From: a virus
Direction: 5' to 3' (one strand)
IMG/VR virus record: IMGVR_UViG_3300021424_000063
Span: 1-47,959 of that record
Length of the DNA stretch: 47,959 bases
A program made the position numbers and the translations under genes. The notes under the pieces are model-generated. The model saw only the letters and a list, made by a program, of their open reading frames with translations, searched no databases and was not told the DNA's origin. Shown here one piece after another: positions 264 to 47,959 of this stretch (position 1 is the first letter of the stretch; the number at the start of each line of letters is the position of its first letter).

Positions 264-370
264 GTGTAAATAAAAATTAAAGGTTTATGTTAAAATTATA
301 AGTGTATAAAAAGTTATAGTCAAATAGTGTCGCCAAAAAAAATCAAGGTTGAATTAATCGACCTTAATCA

Positions 371-1060
371 TTATTTATAATATATTTCAGGGTCAAAAGG
401 TTCTATACCTTTGTCAAAAGATTTCGCTACTTCAGAAGGACTATAGTTATCAATCTCATCAGAAGTTAAAACGTATTCATTTTTACCTGATTTTTCCATC
501 TCAATTTTTTTATCATCAAAAAAGTCTGAAAGTTTTTGTTTGAATGGTCCAGAGTCTAGAGTTCTGAGTTCAAGTTTTTCTTCGGGAGTCTTGGGTTTGT
601 ATTTTTCAACTTTGGCCTCAAGCGAGTCTAATTTTTGAACTAATTGATCCATTTCTCCAAGTTTACTTTGTAGAGTTTCTAATTGACTAAATAGGTTGTT
701 GAAGTACTCTTCTTGTTTATCTGACATAGATTTTTGAGTATCGATTAAATCGGTAATATCTACCTCTTCAACTTCTTCATCACCTTCTTTTCCCTCCGCA
801 CCAATTTCTTCAACTTCATCGTCTTGTGATACATCAACTATTTCGGGAGTGTCTCCTGTAGATGGTGGTACAGGTGGCGGTGGTAATGCCCCTTCTGCCG
901 GTGGTGCTCCCGTTGCCGCATCACCTGCCGGTAGTATTGCTCCAGCGGCGTCGTCTGGTGCTGGTGGTGGGGCTAAAGCTTCAACACCTTGTTCGTTGAT
1001 ATAATTTGTAATGGATCTATATCGTTGTATCTCTTGGAGAATTTTCTTATCAATTGCCAT
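371..1060 (-). CDS. Unknown acidic, proline/alanine-rich protein with coiled coil
   Basis: The 229-residue product is not recognised. It has a short amphipathic N-terminal helix (MAIDKKILQEIQRYRSITNY), then a low-complexity Pro/Ala/Gly region at about residues 30-70, then a very acidic stretch at about 75-105. A probable coiled coil follows at about 110-155 (LETLQSKLGEMDQLVQKL), and the C-terminal part is charged. It lies directly downstream of a 74-residue gene (one base between) and upstream of the gp32-like gene. The disordered acidic middle and coiled coil would suit a scaffold-like or virion-associated role, but that is inference. The start is fixed by the tight spacing to the gene before it. 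Confidence 0.7.
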   Translation of the reverse strand: MAIDKKILQEIQRYRSITNYINEQGVEALAPPPAPDDAAGAILPAGDAATGAPPAEGALPPPPVPPSTGDTPEIVDVSQDDEVEEIGAEGKEGDEEVEEVDITDLIDTQKSMSDKQEEYFNNLFSQLETLQSKLGEMDQLVQKLDSLEAKVEKYKPKTPEEKLELRTLDSGPFKQKLSDFFDDKKIEMEKSGKNEYVLTSDEIDNYSPSEVAKSFDKGIEPFDPEIYYK

Positions 1061-1061
1061 T

Positions 1062-1286
1062 TTACCCGTTTAATAATGTTTTTATACCATTGTTGGTTTC
1101 TACTTGAATTTTTCTGAAGGTTTTCATGGTATTGTCTACTCTTTCAATCAACCCATCTTTCATTCTAACTGTGTAACAATCTCCAGTGTCCAAATCACAG
1201 ACTTCTTTATATCCGTTTCCTTTGTCTTTTTCACTTACTCGGGTGTTTTTACCCAAATAATTATCTAATATAAGTTTTACATTCAT
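1062..1286 (-). CDS. Unknown small protein
   Basis: This 74-residue protein is not recognised. It is mixed alpha/beta with a central C-D-L-D-T-G-D-C segment (two cysteines six residues apart) and ends ETNNGIKTLLNG. It is preceded by a TATTTAT motif at 1304-1310 and appears to begin the small unit that continues into the 229-residue gene. The leader contains AACACAAG before ATG and no Shine-Dalgarno sequence. A function cannot be inferred. Confidence 0.6.
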   Translation of the reverse strand: MNVKLILDNYLGKNTRVSEKDKGNGYKEVCDLDTGDCYTVRMKDGLIERVDNTMKTFRKIQVETNNGIKTLLNG

Positions 1287-1303
1287 CTTGTGTTGTTTTT
1301 ATA

Positions 1304-1310
1304 ATAAATA
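1304..1310 (-). promoter_or_regulatory. Candidate late-promoter motif TATTTAT
   Basis: On the coding strand this reads TTATATTTATTAT, 17 bases upstream of the ATG at 1286. It is one of about 16 copies of the same heptamer placed before genes in this window. Confidence 0.4.
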
Positions 1311-1342
1311 TAAAGTTTTGTAAAAAAAGTTTCATTTCACAT

Positions 1343-4300
1343 TTATAATGATCTGTAAACTCTAATCGCATCATTAAATTTCGCAACAAGTATCGCTTTA
1401 TCTTCATTAGTCATTTCAGTCCAAACTTTTGGATCTCTTGGTACAGGGTATTTTGTCACATAAAGTTCTGCAAAATATTCGGCTAGTGTACTTGACGGAG
1501 TTGTATTTTGTATCAATCCACTAACTTTATTAAAAGCAAAATCAATAAACGAATTCAAATCGATGAAACTAACTATTGGAAAGTTAACATTTTGACCTCT
1601 GTTTATACAATAATATTTTTTGTTGAAATAGTTGGAGTAGTTTGTGAAGTATTGTCTTAAATCTATAGTACTATAGTTATTTTCATAAGTCTCAAATCCT
1701 GTGTTTGTGGATGAATCAACATATAGGAAAGAAAATAATAAACTAGTGTATTGTTTAAGACTGTCACCCGTATAGTTTTTACTAACTAAGAATGTACCTA
1801 TACTTGTTTGCATTTGTTTGAATGTAGTTCTTGTCACTGCAGGAAATTCGGTTTGCGTAAATCCAAGATATTTCGGGTTAATTTCCGAATTACAATCTTG
1901 ATTTGATGTTAATTTGTCTTCTGCAACAACGTTTGACAACACGTTTGCCTTTTCTTGTTCTATGGTTGCTGGATCTGATAATTTTTTTGTTTCATTTTGT
2001 TGTATGGTTTGTTGTATACTTTTCAATATGTTTTGATTGAGTGACTGTATAAAATTATCTATCTTAGGTAAAGAATAAAAAGGTTGTCTAATTCCTTCGA
2101 AGAATGTATCAAATCCATTTTCACTAATTCTATGTCTCACAGTTGTTATCATGTAAGGACCCGAAAACATCGGTATGTTTCTAACATTAAAATACATTGT
2201 TGGTTGTATCAACGCATTTCCCATCATATCAACGGAACATCTGTAACTTCTATTTTTGTATAGATTGTATAATGAAACGTTTTGTGTTGAGCTTCTTCTA
2301 TTTTTAGAAAGATTGGCCAATTGGTTCAAAACTTCCAATGATTCAGACGTTGGTTTTCCAGGATCTTGAGCCACGTCAAATTGTTTAAATATTTGTTGGT
2401 TTTGTAGTGTCATGTCGACATTAAACCCAACAAGTTTATTCGATCTGGCCCAATCTGTTTTATTTTCTTGACTCTCAACTAATGGGTTGTCACTAGCCCT
2501 TCTTAGATCAAAAGCGTCATCTCTATATCTATAATCAACATTTTCATTCATCGCCAAATGTTCACTTGGTTTGTTAGCGTAAACACAAACGTATTTTGGT
2601 GAACTGTCTCGGTAATCCACATTTAGATATGTACCAAACAAATTTCTTGCAAATTCAGTGGTACCTTCAAATCTCGGTGTTGGGTTAAGTTGTGCGTCCT
2701 GTACATTATAAAAATTAATATAAGAAGGTAACATGTATGTTACAAAATTATTGTTCTTAAGTATAGTTTCTATCATACCTAAAAGAGTGTTTTTATAAGC
2801 CCCGTCTTCAATCAATTCTTTAACCTCAAATATGTCTACTAATATTTTGTCTCCAATATCTCTTGAGGCTCTGTCCATTAAAAGAACATCTTCAAACAAT
2901 GTTTTGTTCGAAAAGTCGTAACCAGAAATCCATGTGTCGTTCAAAGCCTTGAACATTTCCCACAATTCAGTTCTTGTCTGTTCTGTAAAACCTGCTTCTA
3001 AGTCTGCACGTACCGAACCTTCTTGTGGACTGATGATTACTGTTGGTAAAGTATTTCTGACTGTTGGCATTAAAACACTTATGACATTATTAAGATATTC
3101 TTTTGATGCCAATAGGTAATTATCCATACCCGAATAAAAAGATGTTATATCTATGTTTGGGTCCAAAAGTTTTTGAGTGGCAAATATTTTAATAATTGGT
3201 GCAAAATCTTTAACATTTTTTTCGTTAAATCCAACATTCATATCAATAAAGAAATCAGTAATATAAGACCCACTATTTGTATATTCTAACTGTGGTATTT
3301 TAGAAAAACCTACATATGTTTCAAGAGCTTTCCAAACATCAGGATTTTGTGTTTTTGAATTTGCCAAAGATAAGTTCGGAACGGTTCCGTCACCAGGTAG
3401 ATTACCTTTTATGTATTGATCCAACACTATAGGTTCCTCAATAAATTGAGTCGAAAAAGTGAAAAATGTTTTTCTGTCAAATCCTGAAGGGTTTCCGTAT
3501 TTAAAAACAACATCGTATTCTAAAAAGTTTTTTAGTACGGTTTGGAAAACTTGGTTTTGTGCTGATATTACATCATTGAGTGTTTCCTTTGGAGAAGTTT
3601 TTATTGGATTTCTTATCTTTAACAATTCTCTCATCAACCCTTGGAAGTTTTTATAATATTGTTCGCTTGGAGTTTCAGTACTACTTAGATTTTGTAAGTT
3701 TGGTTGAGAAAGATCCGCCAAATTATTTTGTAATGTTGGTGGAATCAAGTCGGTATAATCATAAATTGATTTACTGAAGTTCAGAAATTGAAGTTCAAAC
3801 AAATCTAAAACATTCTTATCAAAAGCGCTAAACATATCGTCCAAATAAGAATAATCACTTTTTTGTCCTGAGATCAAGAAATTTTGTTGGGTGTTCGAGT
3901 TGTTCAATATGTTTTTTAAATACGTGTCAGGATTGTTTTTAACGACAAAAGAGTTGTTGTAATATCCGTAAGTTGGTGCATTCCAAAATAATCTTACCGA
4001 CCCATTGAAGACTGCGGGGTTTTGTGATAATTCAATTCTCATAGACCCGTTTTTGAAACATTCAGAATACGTTTGGTTCTGATCATAACCAAATGATGGG
4101 AATACAAAATAGTTATCGGTTTTTTGTGATTTGACTAAAACTGACCAAGTTCTTAGTGTTAAAGTTCTGGTCAAATTGTTAGGGTCAAATCCAATGGATC
4201 CTTCTATGTTTGCGGTACTATTATTAAATAGAAGTAAAATATCATCATTTATCAACTGTTGTATGTCTACGGAACTCGGTCCATTAACAATTAAATTTTG

Positions 4301-7300
4301 TACTGTAAATGGTGTGGTCGAAGCACTTTGTGATAATGAAACAACATATTGACCTATACCACCTGTAGTTCCTGCTATCTGACTCAAAATTGTTGTGTTT
4401 GGTAGTATACCCAAACCAGTTATAATTGCACCAATGAATAAATTATTACTACTTACAGTAGATACATTCATCACAGAACCGCTTATTGAACAAACACCTT
4501 GTACTAAACTTGACCCTGTGAGTAATTTTGTCCCTTGTAAAAATACATTAAAGTCGTCAATTAATTGAGGGTAAAACCCAACGTTCATGTTTGTGTTTGG
4601 TGTTGGGGTATTTGTTGTTTGGTCTAAAACAATATTGTATAAATTGTTACCGACCGTAAGTGGGTAGTTGTAAGTTGTTGCCGAATTGATTGGGTCAAAG
4701 TTTCTAACCGCATTAAAGTCCTTCCATACATCATCCAAAAAGTCAATTCCAGTATCTTTCCATGTTTTATATCTATGCCAAATACCACCATACTTTAAAA
4801 CCCAAGCGTATGGTAATTTATGAATTGCCCCAAACTTTTTTAGTGTTGCCAAAATATAATTTAAATCAACACTAGCCCCACCTTCTCCATATGTCTTAAA
4901 TTTTTCTTTAGTTGTTGCCAATGGTAAACTATCCAAAAACAAATACGCGGCAGACTTATATGGACTTGTTTCTCCCGATCTGAACCTAAATTTAAAAACC
5001 CCGTCTTGAATTGCATTTATAAAATACGGTGTGTTTAACATTGATATTGTTTGATTGGGTTCTAAATATCCATTGTAGTTTGTATACTTTAAGTTACCTT
5101 CAGTGGTTAATTGTTTTGGAATAGTTCTTGACGTATAAAACAATGAGAAATTAACAGGTTGTAGTACGTCAGTTAAATTGAAATAATTGAAGTTAGATAT
5201 TGGTCTTTTGATTGTTTGGTCTTCTCCGGCTTCAAAGCTTGCAATAGTTTTTTGGTTGTCATTGTATTCCAAAACTTTTTGTGTATCAAAAGCCTCTTCA
5301 GCAGCATTTAATGTATCTCCATTCGCCAAATTACTTTTATCCCAATTTAAATCCAATAAAGGATAAATGTCTGTAAAGTCAAAGACGTTACTAGCACTTG
5401 AGTCGGCAATATACTTTTCAATGTTTATTTTGTTTGTTTCAATTGTTAACTCAATATCAGGTTGTGATTTTGTGTTGACTAAAATGTCTTGATTGAATAG
5501 TCTACTTGGGTTTTCAACTTCATTTCTAATGTATGGTGTAACAAAAATTCCTCTAATAAAATCTTGCCAACTCTCCCCTTGTCCTTCGTTAGATATGTGT
5601 CTTAAGAATATTTCAAAGTTGGTTTGATCTATATTATATTCTTTTAATATTTTTGACATGTATGGACTTGAGGAACTTAGACTTTCTAAAATATTCAACG
5701 TTTCATTTTCCGCCTCAACGTTGTAAACACTGAAAGGATATCCACTTTGTCTATTTAATTTGCTGTAGTATGCGTTAAGAATTACTCTTTCATATATTTC
5801 ATACATGTATTTGACTTGTTGTTTGTTCTGAAATATTTGATTTGATGTTGGGAAATCTATTGAATTAAGAGATACTCTTCTTGGTTTGTTTAATAAATTT
5901 GTTTGATTATCGCTCAACTCTTTGAAGTCGTCATCACGGTGAGTATATCCTTTTATAAACTCTTCAACAAACTGTACTTCAGGCCAAATTTCAGGAAGAT
6001 ACGACCTGTATAAAAATGCAACATCTGGAGCTCCGGGATAAACAATTTCAAATTTTTCTTTATTATCATCTTCGGTGATTTCTCTAATGACTTGCGGCCA
6101 AGGATATATTGGTTCATCGTTTTGTGTTGAGGTTTTGATATCAACACTCGGGGCGGTAGATGCGTTTCCAAAAATTGCTTGTTTTCTATAAGGTTCTTGT
6201 CTTACGTCCCAAGCTTTGGTGTGAACTTCATCCATCAATCTTAAAAACGCCTCTCCTTGACAAAAGAAAACTGCCAATATATTTCTTACGGTAGGAATAA
6301 ATCCTAAACCATATTGTTTATTATTAAATTGTGAACGTAGGTTTTCTGTTATTCTTGTTTCTATTTCTCTTTTAAAACTTTCTACTTGTTTACCCATTTT
6401 GGTTGTAATGTACATGAAAGAACCAGGTCCTTCAAAATAAAACAAGTTACCTTTCAATAGTTCAATTTCGGCAAGTTTACTAGTTTTAAATGCTCTTACT
6501 TTTTCAGGATATAAATTACCAAAGACACTTTGGGTTGGGTTTTTTAATCTATATGTTTTTTCCCAATCAATATCCGTTTCGGGATTTATCTTTCTAATAA
6601 AAGTCGTGTCTTTGATTGAGAACTCTATTCTACTTGGGTATATTGTACCACCAACGCTGTAAGTTCCAGGAGTTTTTCCAAAAACACTATTAGTATTCAA
6701 TTGTGTGTTATATTTTTGTATTCTACCTGTCAACTCTGAAAACCATTTGTCTTTGTTTTCAGGTGTTAATGTTGGTTTGAATTGATACATTTTTTCACCG
6801 TTGGTAAGAACAAAAGGTTCTTTAACATCCATAAATTGGTTGAACCATGATGTTGTGGTGTACGTATAAATAACTTGTTGGTAATTCAACAACGAATTTA
6901 GATAATTATTTATTTCTGTTAGTACTCCCAAGTTTTCTTTTGTAAACTCCGACAAAACTTTTTTGATAAATTCATCTAAACGATATCTCAATTGATTTAA
7001 TGTCAGTTCAGGAAAATCTTCAGCAATCATTCCTTTTGATTTATAATCTGAATATATTTCCCTCATTTTTTCATAACCTTTACTACTCAGAAATGAAGTT
7101 TGGTTTGTGTTTTTCGCAGTTTGATTTGTTTCGTTAATTTTTGCGGGTATTGTCACCAAATTTTTATACATGTGTGGAACCGCTGTTAAAGAACCAAAAT
7201 TAACAGCAGACAATAAAGTATACTTGTAACCAAAGAATTTCAGTCTTATAATAAAATTATGTGACGACGGATCAAAATTCGAAGTAAAAGATTTCAACAT

Positions 7301-24665: not shown

Positions 24666-25769
24666 ATGAAAGTATCTATTTTATTCAAAGACACAAAATT
24701 TAAAGATTCGGATAAAGAATTTATTGAAAAATTTTTAAAGTTTTTGCAATCCGAGTACCCATTAAAAAAAGACATCAAGGTGCGATTTTTGGGTGACAGA
24801 GAAGGTCAAATGTCGACTGGATCAAGAACTGAAGGATCAGAAATAAAAGTTTTAGCAAAAGGAAGACTAAACAGAGACATAATGAGAACCCTGTCTCATG
24901 AGTGGGTTCATGAACACCAACGCTTAATTCTAAACAGAAAAAAAGGGCCAGATATTGGTGGTCAAAATGAAGATGAAGCAAACGCATTTGCGGGACAATT
25001 AATTAAAAAGTTTGAAAAAAAGTATCCTGATTTAGAACATATGATGTATGAGTCTAAAACTATAAACACCAAATTAGGAATACTCCAAGAACAAATTCTT
25101 TTCGAGGAAAGGGAAACTATTAAAGAAAATTTAATAGTTGAAATGAAAAAAATAGGGATCGAAAAACTACCATACTCTTATTCTTCTTTATCACGTTTTA
25201 TTGATTCCAAAACCATGAACGTTCACTATAATAAACATTACAAAGGTTATGTGGACAAACTAAACAAATTCTTAAAGGACAAAAAAGGGGATTTGAGTTT
25301 AGAGGAAATCATTAAATCGATTAATAAATTTGACGATAAAGTCAGAAATAATGCTGGCGGTGCCTTTAATCATGCTTTATTTTGGAAAATGTTGTCACCA
25401 ACAAAACAACTACCCAAAGGTGAAATTTTGAAAAAAATAAATCAAGATTTTGGTAACATAAAAAAAATGAAAGATGAGTTCAACGAAGCCGCTAAAGACA
25501 GATTCGGTTCGGGGTGGGCGTGGTTATATCTTGGTAATGATAATAAGTTGAAAATTATGTCGACACCTAATCAAGATAATCCTTTGATGAACATCGTAAA
25601 AGGCGGTGGATACCCATTATTGGGATTGGACGTTTGGGAACACGCATATTATTTGAAATACCAAAATAAAAGAGATGAGTACATCAAAAAATTTTGGGAT
25701 TCAGTAAATTGGGAATTTGTGGATGAACTATACACCACTAAAATTTCAAAAGAAAAAAACAAAAATTGA
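24666..25769 (+). CDS. Metalloprotease-like domain fused to Mn-type superoxide dismutase
   Basis: The 367-residue protein has two domains. Residues 1-125 carry a zinc-metalloprotease motif, LSHEWVHEHQ (His78-Glu79-x-x-His82), followed by 'GGQNEDEANAFAGQLI', where Glu104 in ExANxFA is the likely third ligand, as in ImmA/IrrE-like proteases. A helical linker covers about 126-165. Residues 166-356 are an Fe/Mn superoxide dismutase: SYSSLSRFID, 'MNVHYNKHYKGYVDKLN' (His187, Tyr195), 'NNAGGAFNHALFWKML' (His236), GSGWAWLYLG (281-290), 'MSTPNQDNPL' (Gln303) and 'GLDVWEHAYYLKYQNKR' (Asp322, His326). All four metal ligands of the family are present. The GG before His236 and the Gln in NQD match the manganese type. 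Superoxide dismutases convert superoxide to peroxide and oxygen. It lies between a helicase and a neck gene, so it may be carried in the virion or act late. I know no such fusion. Confidence 0.88.
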   Translation: MKVSILFKDTKFKDSDKEFIEKFLKFLQSEYPLKKDIKVRFLGDREGQMSTGSRTEGSEIKVLAKGRLNRDIMRTLSHEWVHEHQRLILNRKKGPDIGGQNEDEANAFAGQLIKKFEKKYPDLEHMMYESKTINTKLGILQEQILFEERETIKENLIVEMKKIGIEKLPYSYSSLSRFIDSKTMNVHYNKHYKGYVDKLNKFLKDKKGDLSLEEIIKSINKFDDKVRNNAGGAFNHALFWKMLSPTKQLPKGEILKKINQDFGNIKKMKDEFNEAAKDRFGSGWAWLYLGNDNKLKIMSTPNQDNPLMNIVKGGGYPLLGLDVWEHAYYLKYQNKRDEYIKKFWDSVNWEFVDELYTTKISKEKNKN

Positions 25770-32812: not shown

Positions 32813-35131
32813 CTAACATTCTTTTCGCAATTCTGCAGCATAAAAGTCAAATCTGTTATGTTCAGTTGGTGTCATCAAAAGAACCCCCGATTTTATTCTT
32901 CCTTTGACGGTTTCTTGGTAACAATGAGACATTAGGGTTTGTTCGTAAGGATTTGCAAATTTTGTTTCCAAGTAACATTTATAATTACCTTCTTTACTCA
33001 TTATAATTGGCCAATTCGAGAGATATATTTCTCCAGTCGCATAAGGAATTCCTTCTACAGATTTAATGTTTTTAAATTCTAACGATGGAGAATTCGGGTC
33101 TTGTCCGTGGGTTGGTAAATTTTGATTCTGTGGCCAATGTTTAGATCTGAAAGTTTGAGGTACGTTATACCAAGACCATTGTTTTTCGTGACTGCCATAA
33201 AATTCGGTATAGTTAAATTTTAAAAAATCGAGATTTTCTTTTTTTACTATAGATAACATTTTGTTGTAAAAGTTTTCAACGTAACGATTAAATCCATTTT
33301 TACAAACCCCTTTTCTTCCAGAATAAAAAGACATATCGTCTTCAAAAAACATATAATATGACATTTCTGATTGGTCAAAATGTTCTGCAACAAAAACCCT
33401 ACCTCCTGTAATACCAATGTTATCTTTTTTTATGTGTTCAAACCCGTATTGGTCACATAATGATTGATATCTTGAAAATGTGTTAGGGTCTGTAGAATTG
33501 TTTAATAAATATTTTTTTGTTTTCAACAGTATATTTTCATCATAGTCATCCATTGATTTTAATAAAAATTCAAATTGTTCGGGACTATTAAATGTTATTA
33601 CATATAACCCTACTTCACCATTTGTATTATTACTCACAACTTTTATTTTGGATGCGTTTTTTAAAACCGCAGAACCGTTTTTTAAATTTTCAAAAAATGT
33701 GTATAATAAACCATCAGGTAATATTTCAAAGTAGTCAATCAAAGTTGGGTTATTATAAAGTAGGATTGTAAATAAACTTTCCTCAGTACCCATTAATCCT
33801 TTGTTTAAACTATCTTGCATTAAAGAATAATACATCGTATTTAGAATCTCGATCGTTTTTTTTGGACCACCAAAAAAACCTCCTCTTGCAACTTTGTCAA
33901 TTTTTTGATTGGTATAATCATTCATTTTTGAATACTCGAATCCATGAATCTCATTGTGCGCGTTGTATGGAAAACAAACAAAGAAAAACTTATCAAAAGA
34001 TTCTATTTTATCTAAAACATTATCATGAGTGAAATAGTTCATACTTACCGTGTTGGACAGACCGGCATCAATCCAATATAAACTTTCAGAATCGAACTTG
34101 TCTAATATTCTAGCATCGTTTAATAAATACATTTTTGACATAACCAATGGGTTATACATCTCTAATTTTGCTTGTGTTGAGTCCCCAAGCCAACCCGCTA
34201 AACTATACCAATTAGGGTTTTTTCTTATTTGTTGAATTTGATTATAAAACTCATTGTTTTTAAACCAACTTATATCTCTGAGAATAAATTGTGTGTTATC
34301 GGGCTCTCTTTTATTGAACACAAATTTTTCTAATTCTTCGTCACCAAAAATTATCAAATTACAATCGATATCTAATAAATCTGAAAATTTGTTTAGATAG
34401 TGATCATAACTTCTTGACCAACCTTCTTTTAATGAATCTCGACCTATATTCCAAAGACCTGTAACCAAAGTAATTTTTTTACTTTTTACAACAGGTATTG
34501 GTCCGCCAACAACGTGTCTGCCTAATTGACTACACACAACTTCTAAATTATATGGAATATTTTTTTGTTTGAAAAAAACTTTAATTGCAGCGTCAACACC
34601 TGGCAAATCAAATCTTTTAAAATCGTGAAAAAGAATAACTCCACCGTCAACCATTCTATCATATATCTTTTTCAAACTATCGTATATTGAATCGTAAAAA
34701 TCTCCGTCTAAAAAAGCAAAACAAATTTTTTCAGGTAAATCTTCTTCATTAATGTCTTTGAACCACCCTTTTACTATTTTTGGTGGTGTCAACCCATTAT
34801 TTTCAAAGTTTCCTCTAAGTACGTCTTCTGTGGTTTTTAACGTTGATGGTTTCCATCCTGTATTAATTTCATACTCACTCAAAGGAGGTAAACCCTCAAA
34901 AGAATCAAACACAGTTAGGGTTTTTGAAGATTCGAATACATCCAATGTTTTTCTAATATATTTGGATGATTCTCCAACATAACAACCCAATTCAACCACA
35001 TCCCCTTCAAGATTTTTTTGTAAAACTTCAGTTAAGTTTTTTACAATATGAGAAATTTGTTCACTACTAATAATTGAAGCGTCAATTTTGTTGTTTTCAA
35101 AATTTAATATTGATTTTATTATGTTTTTCAT
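32813..35131 (-). CDS. Three-domain methyltransferase / HtrL-like / glycosyltransferase fusion
   Basis: The 772-residue protein has three parts. Residues 1-210 look like a TylF/macrocin-type O-methyltransferase: GDVVELGCYVGESSKYIRK (43-61) binds S-adenosylmethionine, 'FAFLDGDFYDS' holds Asp142 and Asp144, and 'GGVILFHDFK' His169-Asp170. Residues about 219-490 start KITLVTGLWNIGRDS and continue 'YWIDAGLSN', as in the HtrL/YibB family, thought to be sugar-transfer related. Residues about 500-772 look like a GT-A fold with 'YYMFFEDDMSFYSG' (acidic pair near 595). It is the last gene of a run of five on the minus strand, two bases after the GT25-like gene. Substrates are unknown. It may build a methylated glycan. 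Confidence 0.72.
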   Translation of the reverse strand: MKNIIKSILNFENNKIDASIISSEQISHIVKNLTEVLQKNLEGDVVELGCYVGESSKYIRKTLDVFESSKTLTVFDSFEGLPPLSEYEINTGWKPSTLKTTEDVLRGNFENNGLTPPKIVKGWFKDINEEDLPEKICFAFLDGDFYDSIYDSLKKIYDRMVDGGVILFHDFKRFDLPGVDAAIKVFFKQKNIPYNLEVVCSQLGRHVVGGPIPVVKSKKITLVTGLWNIGRDSLKEGWSRSYDHYLNKFSDLLDIDCNLIIFGDEELEKFVFNKREPDNTQFILRDISWFKNNEFYNQIQQIRKNPNWYSLAGWLGDSTQAKLEMYNPLVMSKMYLLNDARILDKFDSESLYWIDAGLSNTVSMNYFTHDNVLDKIESFDKFFFVCFPYNAHNEIHGFEYSKMNDYTNQKIDKVARGGFFGGPKKTIEILNTMYYSLMQDSLNKGLMGTEESLFTILLYNNPTLIDYFEILPDGLLYTFFENLKNGSAVLKNASKIKVVSNNTNGEVGLYVITFNSPEQFEFLLKSMDDYDENILLKTKKYLLNNSTDPNTFSRYQSLCDQYGFEHIKKDNIGITGGRVFVAEHFDQSEMSYYMFFEDDMSFYSGRKGVCKNGFNRYVENFYNKMLSIVKKENLDFLKFNYTEFYGSHEKQWSWYNVPQTFRSKHWPQNQNLPTHGQDPNSPSLEFKNIKSVEGIPYATGEIYLSNWPIIMSKEGNYKCYLETKFANPYEQTLMSHCYQETVKGRIKSGVLLMTPTEHNRFDFYAAELRKEC

Positions 35132-37440: not shown

Positions 37441-38685
37441 TTAAAGTGCTCCTACAATTCTTTCACACCATCCTTTGGATGTTGAGTGTGGCCAAACTAC
37501 CCAATAAGTTGGTCTTTCTTGGGTATTAAATTCTCTCCATATTTTAGCAACACCGTCAGGATCTGTTTTCAATCGGTTTATTTCGTCAAGACCTGCGTCT
37601 TGTCTGTATATTGTTTCATCGTTTTTGTCGTGAAATGCAACAACCCAAAAATCATAATCAGTTTCAGGTAGTCTATTTAAGTCAACGTCAATACAATGTT
37701 TGAATATTGATAAAAAAGTTTCTTTCCACTCATCTTCAGTATTATAATCATATGGATTTGGTGGATAACTTTTATCTAATGTATATTGTTGTATTGCTCT
37801 TTTTTCAAACAACAACCCCGAATACTTTTCATAGTCACGTATACTTCTTTCAGTACCAAACCACTCATTAGTGTCTCCACTATAAATTTCACCGTCAACG
37901 CCTAACAACTGTCTGTTTTTTATATGACACGCCTCATTTTTTTTATACCAATTTTTGTCATCGTCCCATTGTTTAGTCCTTCCTTTTCGTGTGTATTCGT
38001 GCCATATAACAACTTTGTGTGGGTGAAATAAATCATAACCATGAGTAAATGATCTTACAGTAATTGATATTTCTTCGCCGTGGAAATAAAATTCGGGATC
38101 ATGTTGTACTTCTTTAGAAAATTCACCTAAAGTAAAACAGAAGTGTGCCGAATAGAATCTTGCAGGTATAGGACCATCAAGTTTTTTCCAATTTGGAATG
38201 ACTTCAGGTAGAAAGAAAACCACACCTTCAGGTGTGAACCTGTCAAAGGCCATTCTCCAAGGCTCCATAACCCTACCTTTTGGGTCATTGTCAGGGTCAA
38301 AAGATGACACGTAACCTGTCAACAAAGGTTTTTTGTGTCCTTTTGATTGTAGATCTTTTATCATATCAATCAAAGTTTTGTCCCAATTTTTTTCAAATCT
38401 CATGTGAGAGTCTATTTGTAATGTATACTCTTCTCCATCATATTGTTGTTGAGTGAGGTATCTTGCCCAACAAACACCTTTTGATTCTTTATAATCTATG
38501 TTTAAAATTTTAAATCTTTTGTCATTTTCATACTCCGAAAGGTCATCAAATTTATCCTCAGGATTAAATTGTCTTGCAATTGATATGACTAAATTATTTG
38601 GATTTTTAGCATTTTCCAACATGTTTTGAATTGTTGGTATTAACTGTGGGTCTCTATAAGACGCAATTTGTACAAATATTTTCAT
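37441..38685 (-). CDS. GlcNAc-transferase-like (Skp1-type) glycosyltransferase
   Basis: I place the start at ATG 38685 (414 residues, MKIFVQIASYRDPQLIPTIQ). The 29 residues upstream in the same frame (from 38772) are unlike the family and hydrophobic, so the later ATG is preferred. The 'QIASYRDPQ', EYTLQIDSHMRFEKNWD (Asp92-x-His94) and 'YFHGEEISITVR' pattern matches the GlcNAc family related to Skp1 protein GlcNAc-transferases, which act on hydroxyproline in eukaryotes. In phages it could put GlcNAc-like sugars on proteins. It is the first gene of the five-gene run. A 92-base gap separates it from the collagen-like fibre gene. Confidence 0.75.
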   Translation of the reverse strand: MKIFVQIASYRDPQLIPTIQNMLENAKNPNNLVISIARQFNPEDKFDDLSEYENDKRFKILNIDYKESKGVCWARYLTQQQYDGEEYTLQIDSHMRFEKNWDKTLIDMIKDLQSKGHKKPLLTGYVSSFDPDNDPKGRVMEPWRMAFDRFTPEGVVFFLPEVIPNWKKLDGPIPARFYSAHFCFTLGEFSKEVQHDPEFYFHGEEISITVRSFTHGYDLFHPHKVVIWHEYTRKGRTKQWDDDKNWYKKNEACHIKNRQLLGVDGEIYSGDTNEWFGTERSIRDYEKYSGLLFEKRAIQQYTLDKSYPPNPYDYNTEDEWKETFLSIFKHCIDVDLNRLPETDYDFWVVAFHDKNDETIYRQDAGLDEINRLKTDPDGVAKIWREFNTQERPTYWVVWPHSTSKGWCERIVGAL

Positions 38686-38777
38686 AAAAATAAAAATATT
38701 GTAAAATACAAGAAATGTAAATTGTTTTAAGCTGAGGTATCCAGGTAAACATGATACAAAATACACGTTCACCGAGT

Positions 38778-40769
38778 CTACTCCTTCGACATAACATAAA
38801 CTAGTTTACCGTACCAAGAAATGTTTGTCCCCGCTTGTCCTGTAACTCTTAAACGTATTGTTGTTCCGCTGGTGTCTAAGGTAAAGGTTGGGGGACCAGG
38901 AAAATCTTCAAACAACGTGGTCACTGGACTTCCCACAACAGCTAAAACACCTCCTACATGTTCAAAAACCCCTAAAACTTTTCCACCGATTGTATGGTTT
39001 ATTGCCCCACCAATTACCCAACCTTCGACTGTATATCTTCTATTATTACTTGTTGTTATTGTAACTAAAGTAGTTGGTGTTGCGTTAGTTGTTGTAACCC
39101 CCCCCTCTAAATCAAAATTCATTGAACCTGAAGCCCCCGCACCCAAATTGACAGTACCAACATTATCAATAGACATTCTTCTAAGACCACCCGTTGTTAC
39201 ACCAACGGTATCTTGTGCTATTCTATAAAGACCCAAATTGGTGTCCGAACTAAAAGAAAAACTTGGTAAAGAAACACTACCATTACCTGTTCGAACATAG
39301 CCGTCAACCTGTAAAGTATTTGTTGATGGATTATATGTAAATCCAACGTCTGTGTATAAAAACTCTTGAACAGCGGTAGGGTTATTGGAATCAACAAATG
39401 TAGGAAAAAATGTTTGGTCATTGTTGTTTGTAACCGTATCTACTTGAGAAGGTAATGGTGTAGTACCTGATGTTCCGTTAGTACCGGCGGATCCATCTTT
39501 ACCTGAAGTACCATCAGTTCCACTTGTTCCAGAAGTCCCATCAAAACCATTAGTTCCTGATGTTCCATTTATTCCACTAGAACCGTTGATACCAGAAGTA
39601 CCGTTTGTACCGTTTGTACCACTAGTCCCATTAATACCTGATGTTCCATTAGTACCGTTGGTGCCCGAAGTTCCATTAATCCCGTCAGTCCCATTAGTAC
39701 CTGAAGTTCCATTAGTACCACTTGTCCCCAAAGCAGAGGTTCCGCTCGTCCCATTTGTTCCATTTGTACCTGAAGTTCCGTTTGTACCCGATGTTCCATT
39801 TGTACCTGAAGTTCCGTTTGTACCCGATGTCCCATTTGTTCCGTTTGTACCCGATGTCCCATTTACACCCGAAGTTCCATCAGTACCTGAAGTTCCATCA
39901 GTACCTGAAGTTCCATTTGTTCCAGAAGTCCCATCAAAACCATTAGTTCCTGATGTTCCATTTATTCCACTAGTACCGTTGATACCAGAAGTACCGTTCA
40001 CACCGCTAGTTCCATTAATACCTGATGTTCCATCGGTACCACTTGTACCTACGGCTGATGTCCCACTACTTCCATTAGTACCGTTGGTACCTGATGTCCC
40101 ATTAATTCCGTCAGTACCTGATGTCCCATTAATTCCGTCAGTACCTGAAGTTCCATTAGAACCGCTAGTCCCATTAGCACCACTTGTCCCGTTAGTACCT
40201 GAAGTACCATTAGCACCACTTGTCCCGTTAGTACCTGAAGTTCCATTAGTACCACTTGTCCCCAATGCAGAGGTTCCGCTCGTCCCATTTGTTCCATTTG
40301 TACCCGAAGTCCCATTTGTTCCATTTGTACCCGACGTTCCATTTACGCCTGAAGTTCCATTTGTACCTGAAGTACCATTTACGCCTGAAGTTCCATTTGT
40401 ACCCGACGTTCCATTCACACCTGAAGAACCGTTGGTTCCCGAAGTACCTGAAGAACCGTTAGTTCCGTTAGTACCCGATGTTCCACTAGCACCTGAAGTT
40501 CCATTTGTACCATTTGTACCTGAAGTTCCATTGATACCTGACGTACCATTTGTACCTGAAGTTCCATTCGCTCCCGATGTACCTGATGTCCCTGATGTAC
40601 CTGATGTCCCACTACCAATTGCCGTAGCAACTTGTGCCAAAGTTGCCTTGTAGGACGAACCAGCAGGGTTACCTTGAGACAAGTCAGTTGGTATTACAAC
40701 GTGAATTAAATCCGTTGATGTCAAAGGAGGTGCTGGTAATTGATCCGTAAGAAAAGCGTAGTTTGGCAT
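38778..40769 (-). CDS. Collagen-like tail fibre with GTS/GTN repeats
   Basis: The 663-residue protein has a short N-terminal domain (about 1-50, MPNYAFLTDQLPAPPL) for virion attachment. From about 52 to 450 follows a Gly-X-Y tract dominated by G-T-S, G-T-N and G-I-N triplets, without proline. The register breaks at three places (GTSALG twice and GTSAVG once), giving four collagenous segments. The C-terminal 210 residues begin with a fibre-type 'FTYNPSTNTLQVDG' and end with a jelly-roll-like domain. Collagen-like phage fibres are trimers. Thr and Ser fill the X and Y positions, so the surface offers hundreds of hydroxyls for O-linked sugar. Neighbouring genes are glycosyltransferases. It is probably a receptor-binding or side fibre. 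A TATTTAT motif precedes it. Confidence 0.85.
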   Translation of the reverse strand: MPNYAFLTDQLPAPPLTSTDLIHVVIPTDLSQGNPAGSSYKATLAQVATAIGSGTSGTSGTSGTSGANGTSGTNGTSGINGTSGTNGTNGTSGASGTSGTNGTNGSSGTSGTNGSSGVNGTSGTNGTSGVNGTSGTNGTSGVNGTSGTNGTNGTSGTNGTNGTSGTSALGTSGTNGTSGTNGTSGANGTSGTNGTSGANGTSGSNGTSGTDGINGTSGTDGINGTSGTNGTNGSSGTSAVGTSGTDGTSGINGTSGVNGTSGINGTSGINGTSGTNGFDGTSGTNGTSGTDGTSGTDGTSGVNGTSGTNGTNGTSGTNGTSGTNGTSGTNGTSGTNGTNGTSGTSALGTSGTNGTSGTNGTDGINGTSGTNGTNGTSGINGTSGTNGTNGTSGINGSSGINGTSGTNGFDGTSGTSGTDGTSGKDGSAGTNGTSGTTPLPSQVDTVTNNNDQTFFPTFVDSNNPTAVQEFLYTDVGFTYNPSTNTLQVDGYVRTGNGSVSLPSFSFSSDTNLGLYRIAQDTVGVTTGGLRRMSIDNVGTVNLGAGASGSMNFDLEGGVTTTNATPTTLVTITTSNNRRYTVEGWVIGGAINHTIGGKVLGVFEHVGGVLAVVGSPVTTLFEDFPGPPTFTLDTSGTTIRLRVTGQAGTNISWYGKLVYVMSKE
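39470..40620. repeat. Low-complexity tandem repeat coding for Gly-X-Y tract
   Basis: About 1.15 kb of short direct repeats, mostly 9-18 bases (on the plus strand GTACCTGAAGTTCCATT-type units) code for G-T-S/G-T-N triplets. Repeats differ at wobble positions, so they are kept by selection on the protein. Such tracts can change length by slippage or recombination. Confidence 0.85.
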
Positions 40770-41084: not shown

Positions 41085-43226
41085 TTAAAAATTAACTGTG
41101 TTACATGTTCTTGATGCTGACCAAACTCCGTAATTTGTACTTGTTGATGACCAAACAGGTGTAAATGTGTGAGGCGGAGTTAAACCAACCAAGAAAATAG
41201 AAGTCCCTGTTGAGTCCATTCTAACAATATAAATTCGATTAGATTCTTCAAATAAAGAATAATATCTCGATATACTTGGAACTCCGAGAGGTAAAGTACT
41301 TATGTCGAATTCCAAAACACCGTTAGGGTATGAATATTGTTGTATAAAATATAAATCCGTATAAGGGGCCGAGTTTTTTCTTGCCATTAATATGATTTTA
41401 TTGTTCGAGGTATACATTATTGACTCACCTAAATTAAGTGCTTGTACTTGAAACAATTGTGTAATTTCTGAGTTTGTGACGGTATTGAATGTGATATCCA
41501 TCTCAATTACATTTATACTATTAACTAAATTTGTTGTAAACATAATTAATCTTGTGTCTGTAATTGATCCCATAGGCCATAACCAACCATTTCCTGGTAA
41601 GGTTGCCGTAACCGTTATTGTTCTTACAAATGACATAGAAGCCGGAGTTGATGTCGTCCATTCATTTATTAGTTTATTGGCCTGATCGGCTTTCCACAAT
41701 TTAGTAGATGTATGTGTTATAGGAAAATTACTAAAACTATCATTTGGTAATGTAACTTGTGTTAAAGTGTTGTTGATTAAATCGTAAGTTTCAATGTAAC
41801 CATTAATACCTCTACTGTAAACCGCACAACTTAATTGAACTGGATCAAACTCCAATGTTACACAACCGGGTATTTGAGAAGACTCTATTGTTTCAGATTG
41901 TAAAAGATTTCCAAGAAATGTGGTAGTATATGGTTGTGAAGTTTGTATTAAATTAAGAGCCCCAAAACCTAAAGGGGTATATGAACCAATATAAAAATCA
42001 TTATTCCATTGAAATAATGAATGAATTAAAGTTGGTACTGGAATCAATATGTCAATATCCACTTGCCAAGAACCCGAAACATATTTAAATTGAGTTACAT
42101 ATTTTTGAGATAAAGTTGTATCAAAATTTAATGTTATCATTTTAGAATTAGTATTCATAACAATAGCACTTACTTGTCTATCGGCACTCAACGTTGTTAA
42201 ATTGAATATTGGTATTTTACTCCATACAGATCCACTTATATCAACTAAAACAAGTTCAAAACCACCGCCACTACGGAATCCCATGGATACTAAAAGATTT
42301 GGATTTACAATGTTTGTTATCGGATCTCTATAAACACAAAGAGCCCCTGCCAAGGCCCCCAAACTTGGAACCCCGCTAGGTGATGTAATGTCTCTTGAAA
42401 AAACTGCCGACCAAGGGTTAATTGTTATGTCCCATTCTCGAATTGTGTAAGTTGAATTTTCACAAATCCACAATTTATTAGATGTTTGAGCCATTATTAA
42501 ACCAAAAAATCCTGAAGACAAAGGTAGTGCTAGCGAAGTTGTGATATTTGTTGTTGGGTTATAAGAATATAAATTTGATGATGATGTTGCATTGTCTCTG
42601 TCTAAAAATAATGGTACACATAGAGAGGCAGCGTCAGTTGTTTCTGTTGGGGTTGGTGTGGGAGTTGGTGTGTTAGTTGGTGTGGGAGTTGGTGTATGAG
42701 TTGGTGTTACCGTTGGGGTTAAAGTACACCCACAAGGGTTTGTACATGTAGGTGGTGGAGGTGGAGGTAAAGGTGAATTTGTTGGTACGGGTGTTTGTGA
42801 TGGGTTTGGACACCCACAAGGGTTTGTACAAGTTTCTGTTGGGGTTGGTGTAGGAGTTGGGGTTATTGTTGCAGTAACAGTAACTGTTGGTGTGGGTGTT
42901 GGTACCAAACAAGGATCAAACGTAGGTGTAGGGGTCATTGTTGGTGTAGGGGTTGGTGTCTGAGTATGAGTCGGTGTTGGTGTCGGTGTAGGTGTTGGGG
43001 TTGTTCTTGGTACTCTAAGGAAGTTTGTACATCTTGGGTTATATGTCAAAATTGTATAGAATCCGAATCTTTCTCTTGGAGGTACAAGATTACAAGGCTC
43101 AAATAAAAAGGGTAACACAACATCTCCTAAATTTATTGAGATATCTTCATTGTCTGGCGTAAATATAATATTAGCCAACTCACCATCGTAATTAACACTT
43201 TCAATAATTAATGCGGAACAATCCAT
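41085..43226 (-). CDS. Adhesin-like protein: Thr-Pro stalk plus beta-propeller-like domain
   Basis: The 713-residue protein has an N-terminal beta domain (about 1-70), a long Thr-Pro tract (about 78-205; [20 protein letters not shown] and others) and a C-terminal domain of about 500 residues. Within the tract a Cys unit, CTNPCGC, occurs twice with a Pro run between, perhaps small disulfide knots. The C-terminal part has repeats like [20 protein letters not shown] and [19 protein letters not shown], with Y/W-D-I ending blades. This suggests a beta-propeller, as in secreted adhesins. It is likely a fibre or spike that presents a propeller on a Thr-Pro stalk. A TATTTAT motif lies 11 bases upstream of the start. 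Confidence 0.68.
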
Positions 43227-43268: not shown

Positions 43269-44201
43269 TTAAATTATCTCTAATATTTTTTTATAAACTT
43301 GTATTACTTGAGGATGACACTCGAACGATTCTTTTTTTTCTAAACAATCAACCAATGAAGGCACCCCTTGAATGGAACCCCATTCTCTAACTCCGTACTT
43401 CATGTCAGAAGCGCAATGTAGTTGACACCCACCTATTACGTAACGATATTTGTATTCTTGAGATCCGTTTCGATATGGTGACCTAAACTCAGGATTTATT
43501 GAGCTACCTAATTGTAATATTTCACAGTCAGTTGTTCCTGCTAAATGTAAAAGACCTGAATCCATGGTAACAAAACAAGACGAATTATTTATGAGGTGCC
43601 AAGTTTGATCCAAAGTAGTTTGATTCATTAAGTTATATCCGAGTTTAATTGGGAAGTTGAAAACTGGTTTATCAACATTTGACCCTCCTAACTCAGAAGA
43701 ATCTTTTCCAATAGAAATAACATGAATTCCTTTTTCATTTAAAAGTTGGGTTAATATTTGCCAATTTTTGGTAGACCAAGTTCTTGAGTTCCAATTTTGT
43801 ACAGGATGTATTAAAACATATTTTTTTGGTAGATCTAGAAGTATCACATCTTTCGGGAAATAATCTAAGGTCATTTCATGTTTTGTTAACATGAATCCTA
43901 AATTTATTGCGTGAAGTTGTCTGATGTCCATAACATTATGTTTGTTACAAACACCATTTTCTTTGTATGAAACATCAAAAGTTGAAAGAACTTCGCAATT
44001 GTCTTTTAGCCAATTCAATATAGTTGTGTCATACCCGAAGCTGTTTTCAACATAAGGAGAGTTGGAGAATAATTCAGGGTGGTGAGATATTACCGTGACT
44101 TTTTTATCATAAGTTTGACATATTTTTCTAACAACTGGTGTAACGCATAAAGTATCTCCCAAAGCTCTACAACCCGTAACATCAATACAAATATTTTTCA
44201 T
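43269..44201 (-). CDS. GT9-like (heptosyltransferase-type) glycosyltransferase
   Basis: The 310-residue protein opens MKNICIDVTGCRALGDTLCV, with the 'x-G-D-x-(L/I)' loop of GT9 enzymes. It continues with a linker strand and YVLIHPVQNWNSRTWSTKNW, as in the ADP-heptose:LPS heptosyltransferase family (where an R-x-W-x-x-x-x-W segment precedes the sugar-nucleotide part). Late come MDSGLLHLAGTTDCEILQL and a Cys cluster (GGCQLHCASD, then VDCLEKKESFECHP). The cysteines recall the metal-binding finger of autotransporter heptosyltransferases, but the spacing differs. It sits between the propeller adhesin and a broken LamG gene. The sugar donor is probably ADP-heptose or a similar nucleotide sugar, but the acceptor is unknown. 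Confidence 0.72.
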   Translation of the reverse strand: MKNICIDVTGCRALGDTLCVTPVVRKICQTYDKKVTVISHHPELFSNSPYVENSFGYDTTILNWLKDNCEVLSTFDVSYKENGVCNKHNVMDIRQLHAINLGFMLTKHEMTLDYFPKDVILLDLPKKYVLIHPVQNWNSRTWSTKNWQILTQLLNEKGIHVISIGKDSSELGGSNVDKPVFNFPIKLGYNLMNQTTLDQTWHLINNSSCFVTMDSGLLHLAGTTDCEILQLGSSINPEFRSPYRNGSQEYKYRYVIGGCQLHCASDMKYGVREWGSIQGVPSLVDCLEKKESFECHPQVIQVYKKILEII

Positions 44202-45300: not shown

Positions 45301-47959
45301 ATGAAAAAGATTAGATTGTTATACTTAACACCCCACCTATCAACTGGTGGAATGCCACAATTTGTTTTAAAAAGAATTGAATTACTACAAAAATACAAAG
45401 ATGAGATTGAGATTTTTTTGATCGAATATTCACAATTTAGTGACACATACATTGTCCAAAGAAATAAAATCATAGAGTTATTGGGTAAAGATCATTTTTA
45501 TTCGTTGGGTGGTACAACAGAAACCGAAAAAAAATATAATCTTATAAAAATTATAAAAGAAAATAATATTGATATTGTTCATTCAGAAGAATTACCTGAG
45601 GCGTTTGAGAGTTTTAATAAAATACCTTTTGAGTTGTTAAATGAACTTTATGATAACTCAAGATCATATAAAATTGTTGAGACATGTCATAACATTTGGT
45701 TTGATGGTAACAACAACAAAAGATTAAATCCTGATTATTATTGTTTTGTAACACCTTACCACGGCGAAGTTTCATTTAAAAATACGGTATCACCTAAAGA
45801 TTTAATAATTTATCCATATGAAGATAAGGTTAAACCAATTCTGAATGAATTAGAAATATTTTATGACGATCATAAAGTTCCACTTTTGAAAAAAATTGAG
45901 GTAAGAAATGAATTGGGATTGGACTCTATGAAAACACACATAATAAATGTTGGGTTATGGACATCAGGTAAAAATCAAAAAGAAGGAGTTGAGGTTGCAA
46001 GACTTTTAGAAAATTCTCATCCTGATATTCATTTTCATTTCATTGGAAATCAAGCGCCAAATTTTGAAGATTATTGGAAACCTATAATGGATAGTTTACC
46101 AAGTAATGTAACTGTTTGGGGCGAAAGAAATGACGTTGAGAAATTTATGATTGCGTCTGACGCTTTAATGTTTAATTCTACTTGGGAATGTAATCCTTTA
46201 GTTATTAGAGAATCAATAAATTATGGTTTGAAGATATTAGCAAGAGATCTTCCTCAGTATGTGAATATGTTTTCAAATTACATTTATCCAATATCTAGTA
46301 ATAATCCCGAACAAATTAAAAACGACTTATTAAATTTAATTTCAGAAACTAATAGTTACAAGTTGAAAATAGAAAAAGATTTTGGTACTCAATTGTTGAG
46401 TTTCTATAATAAAGTTATGGAGTCACCGTTTGTTTCAAATTTTAAAATAAAAAATGATTATGTGATTAATCAACATTTTGTTGTTAATCCATTTTTAGAA
46501 GTCTTAGGTGAAAGTGACAATGATTTTGAAATTAAATATTTTGATGGAGAAGATTTAATATATTACAATAAATCAAAAATAAATCATTGGGTAAAACTTA
46601 ATAGAGAATATTACACAAAATGGAAAACTGAAATTAGAGAGAACAATGAATTGATTTATGAAAACACTTTAGATTTAAAAGGTCGTAGGGTTTATATTTC
46701 ATTTGGTTCTAAATCATTGGGTGATACAATGGCTTGGTTTCCATATTGTGAGGAGTTTAGAAAAAAACACGACTGTGAACTAATAGTTTCTACATTTATG
46801 AACTTCTTGTTTGAAGATCAATACCCCGATATTGAATTTGTAGAACCTGGTGAACTTGTTTATAACGTTTATGCACAATACAAATTAGGGTGGTTTTATA
46901 AAGACGACGGGGAAATTAATTTAAATAATCACAAATTCGATGTTAAAAGTCACCCACTTCAAAAAACAGCTAGTGACATCTTAGGATTAGATTATACAGA
47001 AATTAGACCCAAATTAAATTTACCAAAAGTAAAAAAACAAAAAAAGGTTGGTATTGGATTTCACTCAACGGCACAGGCAAAATATTGGAACAACCCAAAT
47101 GGTTGGCAAGAAGTTGTTGATTATCTCACATTACAAGGATATGAATGTATGATTTACTCAAGAGAAGGAGATAGTTACATGAATAACAATTACCCAAAAG
47201 GTGTAAAAATATTCAAAGGAGGTGATTTACAAGAAGTTATTGACGATCTGTCAACTTGTGAATTTTTTGTTGGTCTTGGGTCAGGGTTGTCATGGTTAGC
47301 ATGGGCTTGCGAACTACCAATTGTTTTGATTTCAGGTTTTAGTGAAAAATGGACAGAAACTACTTTGGACACTTATCGGGTAATAAATGAAAACGTCTGT
47401 CATGGATGTTTCAATAAAGAAAGATTAGACGCGGGTGACTGGAATTGGTGTCCATTACATAAAGAAACTGAAAGGATGTTTGAATGTACAAAACAAATAA
47501 CATCCGAAATGGTTATTTTTGAAATAAACAAAATAATAAATAAAAAATTAATGAACAAAAATTTTAACGACCATTCATTTGATTGGGGAAAGAAAAGTGA
47601 ATGGTATGTAAATGCCGTAACCAAAGAAATATTTGAGGGTAATATCTATGAAAGAATTTTTCAGGTTGAGGAGGGGGATGTTGTTGTAGATTTGGGGGCT
47701 TCTTTAGGGCCGTTTACATATTCAATATTACCAAAAAATCCTAAACAATGTTTTGTTGTGGAACCTTTATCATATCAAGTTGAGGTATTGAAAAAAAATG
47801 TTGGTCGAGAAAATGTAAAAATAATTCAAGGGGCAATTACAGATAAAAAGAAAATAGAAATCAGTTGGGACAACATTTCTGAAAGTGTACCAACATTTAG
47901 TTTTAAAGAATTCTTAGATGACAATAACATTGAAAAAATCGATTTTTTGAAATGTGATT
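45301..47959 (+). CDS. GT4-like + TibC/AAH-type heptosyltransferase + FkbM-like methyltransferase, partial
   Basis: An open frame from ATG 45301 runs to the right edge (886 codons, no stop). Residues 1-370 are a GT4-like transferase: LYLTPHLSTGGMPQFVLKR, then 'WTSGKNQKEGVEV' and WECNPLVIRESINYG with Glu296-x7-Glu304. Residues about 461-760 match autotransporter heptosyltransferases (TibC/AAH): SFGSKSLGDTMAWFPYCEEF, 'FHSTAQAKYWNNPNGWQ', 'GLGSGLSWLAWA', VLISGFSEKWTE and a Cys finger 'CHGCFN...NWCP...EC' (Cys700, 703, 717, 729). In TibC this cluster binds iron. Residues about 781-886 begin an FkbM-like methyltransferase: VVVDLGASLGPFTYSI and 'KIDFLKCD'. Members of the middle family put heptose on serines of bacterial autotransporter repeats, so the phage likely modifies Ser/Thr-rich proteins. 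It is divergent from the broken LamG gene, 55 bases apart. Confidence 0.85.
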   Translation, partial: MKKIRLLYLTPHLSTGGMPQFVLKRIELLQKYKDEIEIFLIEYSQFSDTYIVQRNKIIELLGKDHFYSLGGTTETEKKYNLIKIIKENNIDIVHSEELPEAFESFNKIPFELLNELYDNSRSYKIVETCHNIWFDGNNNKRLNPDYYCFVTPYHGEVSFKNTVSPKDLIIYPYEDKVKPILNELEIFYDDHKVPLLKKIEVRNELGLDSMKTHIINVGLWTSGKNQKEGVEVARLLENSHPDIHFHFIGNQAPNFEDYWKPIMDSLPSNVTVWGERNDVEKFMIASDALMFNSTWECNPLVIRESINYGLKILARDLPQYVNMFSNYIYPISSNNPEQIKNDLLNLISETNSYKLKIEKDFGTQLLSFYNKVMESPFVSNFKIKNDYVINQHFVVNPFLEVLGESDNDFEIKYFDGEDLIYYNKSKINHWVKLNREYYTKWKTEIRENNELIYENTLDLKGRRVYISFGSKSLGDTMAWFPYCEEFRKKHDCELIVSTFMNFLFEDQYPDIEFVEPGELVYNVYAQYKLGWFYKDDGEINLNNHKFDVKSHPLQKTASDILGLDYTEIRPKLNLPKVKKQKKVGIGFHSTAQAKYWNNPNGWQEVVDYLTLQGYECMIYSREGDSYMNNNYPKGVKIFKGGDLQEVIDDLSTCEFFVGLGSGLSWLAWACELPIVLISGFSEKWTETTLDTYRVINENVCHGCFNKERLDAGDWNWCPLHKETERMFECTKQITSEMVIFEINKIINKKLMNKNFNDHSFDWGKKSEWYVNAVTKEIFEGNIYERIFQVEEGDVVVDLGASLGPFTYSILPKNPKQCFVVEPLSYQVEVLKKNVGRENVKIIQGAITDKKKIEISWDNISESVPTFSFKEFLDDNNIEKIDFLKCD

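Follow-up and report, generated by a model that had tools for sequence, protein, structure and literature searches.

The known acceptors of TibC are autotransporters, the repeat of which is described by the NCBI model TIGR04415 (O_hepto_targRPT), and glycosylated collagen-like surface proteins are known from other settings, among them BclA of Bacillus spores and the mimivirus collagens. TibC and AAH (the BAHT group; model TIGR04414; TibC structures 4rap and 4rb4; PMC4358343) consist of a β-barrel and a GT-B domain with a catalytic Asp, Lys230, Trp305, Phe368 and a four-Cys iron finger, all of which are shared by the phage enzyme described here. For TibC it has been reported that the D110A mutant is inactive, that Lys230 lies at the β-phosphate, that Arg286 hydrogen-bonds the adenine of ADP and that Ser, not Thr, is modified (PMC4358343, from which the residue roles used below are also taken). 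The phage enzyme differs in that it occurs in phages, falls on a separate branch, is often fused to GT4 and FkbM domains and has lost Arg286; its genomes lack the strand-loop-strand target repeat, and the partner is instead a protein with a Gly-Thr/Ser-Ser tract. BclA and the mimivirus collagens resemble this partner in having a Gly-X-Y repeat, with Thr or Ser perhaps bearing sugar, on the exterior of a particle or cell, but they are served by different transferase families, and the phage tracts hold no proline. Virion glycosylation is described for mycobacteriophages at the C-termini of capsid and tail-tube proteins, in the account of Freeman et al. (2023) cited in PMC12619734; glycans on virion proteins would be common to both cases, whereas the phage described here is predicted to use a TibC-type enzyme on long fibre tracts.

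The window (the whole stretch of 47,959 bases that was analysed) comes from the record of a lake phage, a T4-like myovirus with matches to tail sheath, baseplate and tail-tube proteins; of the named isolates that matched in the sheath, Microcystis phage Mel-JY01 had the top score. At its end lies a three-domain gene on the plus strand (45301..47958), of which 886 codons fall within the window, the ORF being open at the 3' end. The complete protein has 974 aa (copy L051:4765-7689), in the order GT4, TibC-type, FkbM. The window is identical at 47,956 of 47,959 positions to part of a 133,946-base IMG/VR contig that holds the whole gene, so that misassembly of a single contig does not account for the fusion; an artefact is ruled out by the presence of the same full-length domain order in about 19 distinct relatives of 57–77 % identity. 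All four parts of the protein lie on the plus strand. The first, a GT4-type (GT-B fold) glycosyltransferase domain (approximately aa 1–375; 45301..46425), matches PF00534 at aa 199–353 with 45.1 bits, over the Pfam cut-off of 26.4. It is followed by the N-terminal β-barrel of the TibC-type unit (approximately aa 385–460; 46453..46680), identified from predicted structure models, by the TibC/BAHT-type catalytic domain (aa 461–746; 46681..47538) and by an FkbM-type methyltransferase domain (47563..47958) that is cut by the window end. The truncated methyltransferase scored only 24.4 bits with TIGR01444, which is sub-threshold, but the complete copy L051 matches PF05050 with 40.6 bits against a cut-off of 22.7. 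Both fusion partners named in an earlier sequence-only reading of this DNA, GT4-like and FkbM-like, are thereby confirmed.

The same reading had placed the middle domain in the autotransporter heptosyltransferase family and proposed a profile search and a structural comparison with TibC, and both bear it out. TIGR04414, hepto_Aah_TibC (Aah/TibC O-heptosyltransferase), matches aa 413–745 with 287.9 bits (E 1.1e-85), against a curated cut-off of 200 bits, and phmmer against the PDB found TibC (4rb4/4rap) with 217 bits and an E-value of about 1e-62. A model of the domain built with 36 relatives (pLDDT 94, pTM 0.92) overlays TibC with a TM score of 0.88 and an rmsd of 2.5 over 377 alignment columns. 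The LPS heptosyltransferases WaaC and WaaF share the GT9 fold and the donor-binding core with the phage enzyme, but they reach a TM score of only about 0.5 with the same model, are without iron finger or barrel, and act on a lipid acceptor. The full-length model was weaker (pLDDT 74, pTM 0.49), its structural matches being TibC first and then the GT4 enzymes BshA, WaaG and MshA; the N-terminal barrel is made of seven to eight strands in this model and in that of the domain alone. Asp475 (46723..46725, plus strand) is the equivalent of the catalytic Asp110 of TibC, and Lys594, Trp665 and Phe727 correspond to Lys230, Trp305 and Phe368. The four Cys residues predicted for the finger, Cys700, Cys703, Cys717 and Cys729 (47398..47487, plus strand), are at exactly those positions and align with TibC Cys339, Cys342, Cys358 and Cys370. 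These eight residues are invariant in all 63 sequences aligned (29 from phages, 14 from divergent bacteria and 20 from the TibC branch). The phage middle domain is a member of the TIGR04414 family (BAHT, GT9).

Within this family the phage enzymes stand apart. A tree, built by a quick method and with moderate support, placed 21 TibC-branch rows (20 bacteria and TibC itself) on one side and 29 phage and 14 bacterial rows on the other, three of the bacterial rows (L085, L086 and L098) coming from metagenome bins and perhaps being phage contigs themselves. Genomes of the TibC branch score 545–655 bits with TIGR04414, the phage-like divergent bacterial relatives 264–322. At the thumb tip, the pair corresponding to the hydrophobic Phe265/Val266, which serve the dodecamer in TibC, is Tyr626/Met627 in 27 of 29 phages and variable in the divergent bacteria. 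The autotransporter target repeat TIGR04415 was found in all four TibC-branch genomes searched and in none of 22 on the other side (11 phage records and 11 divergent-branch genomes). Judged from these sequences, the phage enzymes and some bacterial ones are a branch apart from TibC, and the phage enzyme does not fit the narrower group of BAHT enzymes that act on autotransporters in either its partner repeat or its adenine-contact residue.

Relatives are common. A scan of IMG/VR yielded 323 confirmed stretches with the domain, a profile-guided scan at least 586 stretches encoding relatives, and the records concerned reach 735 kb. INPHARED holds four records with relatives, one of them from a cultured phage, Mel-JY01; its protein, WWT39291, is annotated 'methyltransferase FkbM', but Pfam finds GT4 and GT9 domains and no FkbM match, and the TibC N-terminal domain is below cut-off. 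In the UniProt viral set there is one protein, A0A6J5SVC1, automatically named 'Glycosyltransferase Aah/TibC'. The sequence-only reading knew of no described phage example. For the papers searched, largely without subscription titles, that is correct, since none couples such heptosyltransferases with phages or heptose with collagen-like proteins; for the databases it is not, given the automatic name of A0A6J5SVC1, the hundreds of IMG/VR contigs and the Mel-JY01 relative. Among representatives the domain occurs alone (about 380 aa), as GT4-BAHT (about 700–770 aa), as GT4-BAHT-FkbM (930–990 aa), as BAHT-FkbM (about 610 aa) and in longer forms. The architecture thus varies around the sugar-transfer domain, which is the constant part, the GT4 and methyltransferase parts being optional. 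The proposal of a one-protein line of first sugar, extension and methyl cap is a plausible one with which optional domains fit, without being proof of it, but the GT4 and FkbM domains are missing from many relatives.

The neighbours of the divergent branch include a gene with a tract of Gly-Thr-Ser, Gly-Ser-Ser or Gly-Thr-Asn triplets. The phage tract proteins are collagen-like; over 4,992 triplets, position X is filled by Thr in 69 % and by Ser in 24 %, position Y by Ser in 57 % and by Asn in 30 %. In the window, the collagen-like fibre gene (38778..40769, minus strand; 663 aa; PF01391, 178 bits), a candidate substrate, lies 4.5 kb from the enzyme gene, and its Gly-X-Y tracts (39459-40610) amount to 378 aa with 67 Ser, 99 Thr and no Pro. 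In a 134-kb copy the next gene downstream of the enzyme gene is convergent, ends 39 bases past it and is an ORF of 2,730 codons with a single uninterrupted tract of 642 triplets (572 T, 349 S and no P). The rise of a triple helix is 0.286 nm per residue, and the 1,926 residues of this tract would extend for about 0.55 µm if triple-helical.

One uniform tract detector was applied to phage, background and bacterial loci. After dereplication, 24 phage loci were 9 kb or longer, and 16 of them had a tract, compared with 5.7 % of 12.95-kb windows that lacked BAHT and came from the same long contigs (binomial p 6e-15), and on most long contigs the nearest tract was closer to the enzyme than under random placement (Fisher p 1.3e-5), although the phage rows are related and these p-values overstate independence. 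In bacteria, 13 of 15 divergent-branch loci had a tract, mostly within the gene adjoining the enzyme, compared with 0 of 25 TibC-branch loci (Fisher p 9e-9). Pattern searches of whole genomes found the tract solely around the enzyme locus in several (G018, G028, G029 and G030) and not at all in four TibC-branch genomes. The rule was then applied to hold-out loci fetched after it had been set, from two bacterial orders, 360 genomes in all, of which a few were already known, with new enzymes classed by two profiles; the tract was present in 7 of 8 new divergent loci and 0 of 6 TibC-branch loci (p 0.002), L450 being excluded from the count as an apparent repeat of L094. Phage glycosyltransferase and fibre genes tend to cluster anyway, which counts against a role for the tract, but the bacterial and hold-out results are free of this obvious confounder. 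The pairing does not run in both directions: the converse, an enzyme in every phage that has a tract, does not hold, BAHT having been seen in only 7 of 80 tract-bearing phage loci within the stretch examined, and most tract proteins are therefore either bare or otherwise modified.

With tract genes as neighbours in phages and, separately, in bacteria, and with the autotransporter repeat missing, we infer O-glycosylation of proline-free collagen-like virion fibres. Our working hypothesis, to which we would give odds of roughly two in three, is that this fused enzyme of the TibC family glycosylates the phage's own virion by placing a sugar, likely heptose, on the collagen-like fibre tracts. The TibC-type domain would transfer the sugar to Ser, and perhaps Thr, of proline-free Gly-Thr/Ser-Ser tracts in the cytoplasm of the infected cell, ahead of virion assembly, with ADP-heptose as the most probable donor; extension by a second sugar may then fall to the fused GT4 domain, and O-methylation of the glycan to the FkbM domain. 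The tract as acceptor, the activity of the enzyme, its donor and the order of the three reactions are all inferred from sequence and context. It counts against this reading that Thr dominates the tracts, TibC having modified Ser and not Thr. The benefit could lie in stiffening, protecting or shielding a long fibre, or in altered receptor binding. Proline-free Gly-X-Y chains are expected to form poor triple helices, and sugars on Thr and Ser could stabilize them. The suggestion in the sequence-only reading that a phage version could glycosylate the virion has thus found good support in its context, tract proteins adjoining the gene in many phages and independently in bacteria, which falls short of proof.

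The identity of the sugar is the less secure part of this hypothesis. A variant with the same fibre target, in which the phage branch uses a different nucleotide sugar, strikes us as rather unlikely, although it has several observations on its side. The position of Arg286 in TibC is occupied by Val646 in this enzyme and by Val or Leu in 24 of 29 phages, with Arg kept in 20 of 20 TibC-branch enzymes, and the position of Pro300 is Gly, Ser or Ala in phages; with Arg286 lost the donor may differ. The isomerase gene gmhA was found in 2 of 18 phage records and was absent from the other 16, HldE-C-like matches occurred in 4 of 18, all well under cut-off, and in most large phage records heptose-pathway genes were not found, so that the idea of a phage making its own heptose is only partly borne out. 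Heptose may also be scarce in cyanobacterial hosts, the host of Mel-JY01 among them. Against a change of donor, the catalytic Asp and the equivalents of the heptose-contacting Trp305 and Lys230 are invariant, and Arg286 is missing in some divergent bacteria too. Two relatives have phosphoheptose isomerase matches: a gene in the 636-kb phage record LR756504 (L162, LR756504.1 430182-430640; PRK00414, 307 bits, cut-off 265), 27 kb from the TibC-type gene of that record, and a second match, of 238 bits, in a 373-kb contig. Together with the invariant Trp and Lys, these matches make ADP-heptose the leading candidate for the donor. Heptose, as the sequence-only reading had it, is accordingly retained as likely but not secure, with the catalytic and sugar-contacting residues kept and the ADP-selecting one lost in most phages.

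It is also conceivable that the enzyme glycosylates some other virion protein, the tract genes being mere neighbours in a cluster of fibre and sugar genes. The window does encode an alternative candidate substrate, a Pro-Thr-repeat protein of 713 aa (41085..43226, minus strand; read from the translation, with no Pfam match), lectin-like tips could also serve, and several other glycosyltransferases are present. In addition, 8 of the 24 phage loci had BAHT without a tract within about 6 kb, and contig G007 had no tract anywhere. We nevertheless consider this improbable, because the same pairing occurs in bacteria without a tail module and was repeated in the later-fetched loci. Modification of glycans or proteins on the surface of the infected cell, to stop superinfection for instance, for which it could be said that the LPS heptosyltransferases belong to GT9 and that temperate phages, as PMC12619734 states, are known to carry serotype-modifying transferases, is the least probable reading, since the domain is far nearer TibC than WaaC/WaaF, keeps both iron finger and barrel, is encoded among fibre genes and has divergent bacterial relatives that are likewise paired with tract proteins. 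Glycosylation of the fibre tracts is the reading that we carry forward, and the gene context of the phage branch suggests that its sugars go onto phage fibres, not bacterial adhesins.

It is interesting to speculate further. Tentatively, and with less than even confidence, we propose a second branch of the TibC family, with representatives in large aquatic phages and in certain gamma- and betaproteobacteria, with the Gly-Thr/Ser-Ser tract as its dedicated substrate and with sugars replacing proline and hydroxyproline as stabilizers in the phage fibres. If sugars do stabilize proline-free Gly-X-Y helices, this would be relevant to the making of collagen-like fibres that contain no hydroxyproline. 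The family would be widened from bacterial adhesins to phage fibres and a second class of substrate, and for virion glycosylation in a large and common group of freshwater phages there would be a named enzyme and a named, predicted acceptor motif. A function is likewise predicted for bacterial (GTS)n/(GSS)n surface proteins. Such proteins are encoded next to TibC-type genes of the divergent branch in Methylobacter, Methylomicrobium and others (L087-L099, L438-L443), as in Methylobacter luteus (L087), with the enzyme at 5752-7035 and the tract protein at about 4836-5696; they are small, their start reads by eye as a signal peptide or lipobox, and they are probably glycosylated surface proteins. 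The prediction is directly testable, since the pair is present in a phage and in bacteria that are in culture, Mel-JY01 and Methylobacter respectively.

In Mel-JY01 (L082, PP395634.1, 1-3052) the annotated minus-strand CDS 739-2298 reads as the antisense (PLVPEVPxVP) of a collagen-like plus-strand ORF (2-3049; 1,016 codons) that is itself unannotated; it seems that a spurious call on the opposite strand masks the true tract gene. A 'cytidylyltransferase' near the enzyme gene of this phage (L082:11243-13162) appears by eye to comprise a nucleotidyltransferase and a ligase-like part.

Several other genes of the window are predicted to act on sugars. A separate GT9 (heptosyltransferase-like) gene (43269..44201, minus strand; PF01075, 52.7 bits) is found in 21 loci of relatives, and its own Cys residues 259, 263, 286 and 295 are near-invariant in 23 sequences; it possibly encodes a second iron-finger transferase. 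Beside the collagen-like gene is a PF11397 glycosyltransferase (GlcNAc) gene (37441..38772, minus strand; 235 bits, cut-off 21), from the family of the Skp1 hydroxyproline GlcNAc-transferase. A GT25 gene is also encoded, as is a fusion of a TylF-type methyltransferase, HtrL_YibB and a weak TAGT-like part (32813..35131, minus strand; PF05711, 91.6 bits; PF09612, 44.7 bits), the second multi-domain protein of the window predicted to modify sugars. Together these four make up a predicted sugar-modification island surrounding the fibre genes. The separate GT9 protein also has an FEC motif that recalls the iron finger. Elsewhere in the window, a phage protein of 367 aa (24666..25769, plus strand) contains an iron/manganese superoxide dismutase at aa 166–354 (PF02777, 138 bits; PF00081, 74 bits).
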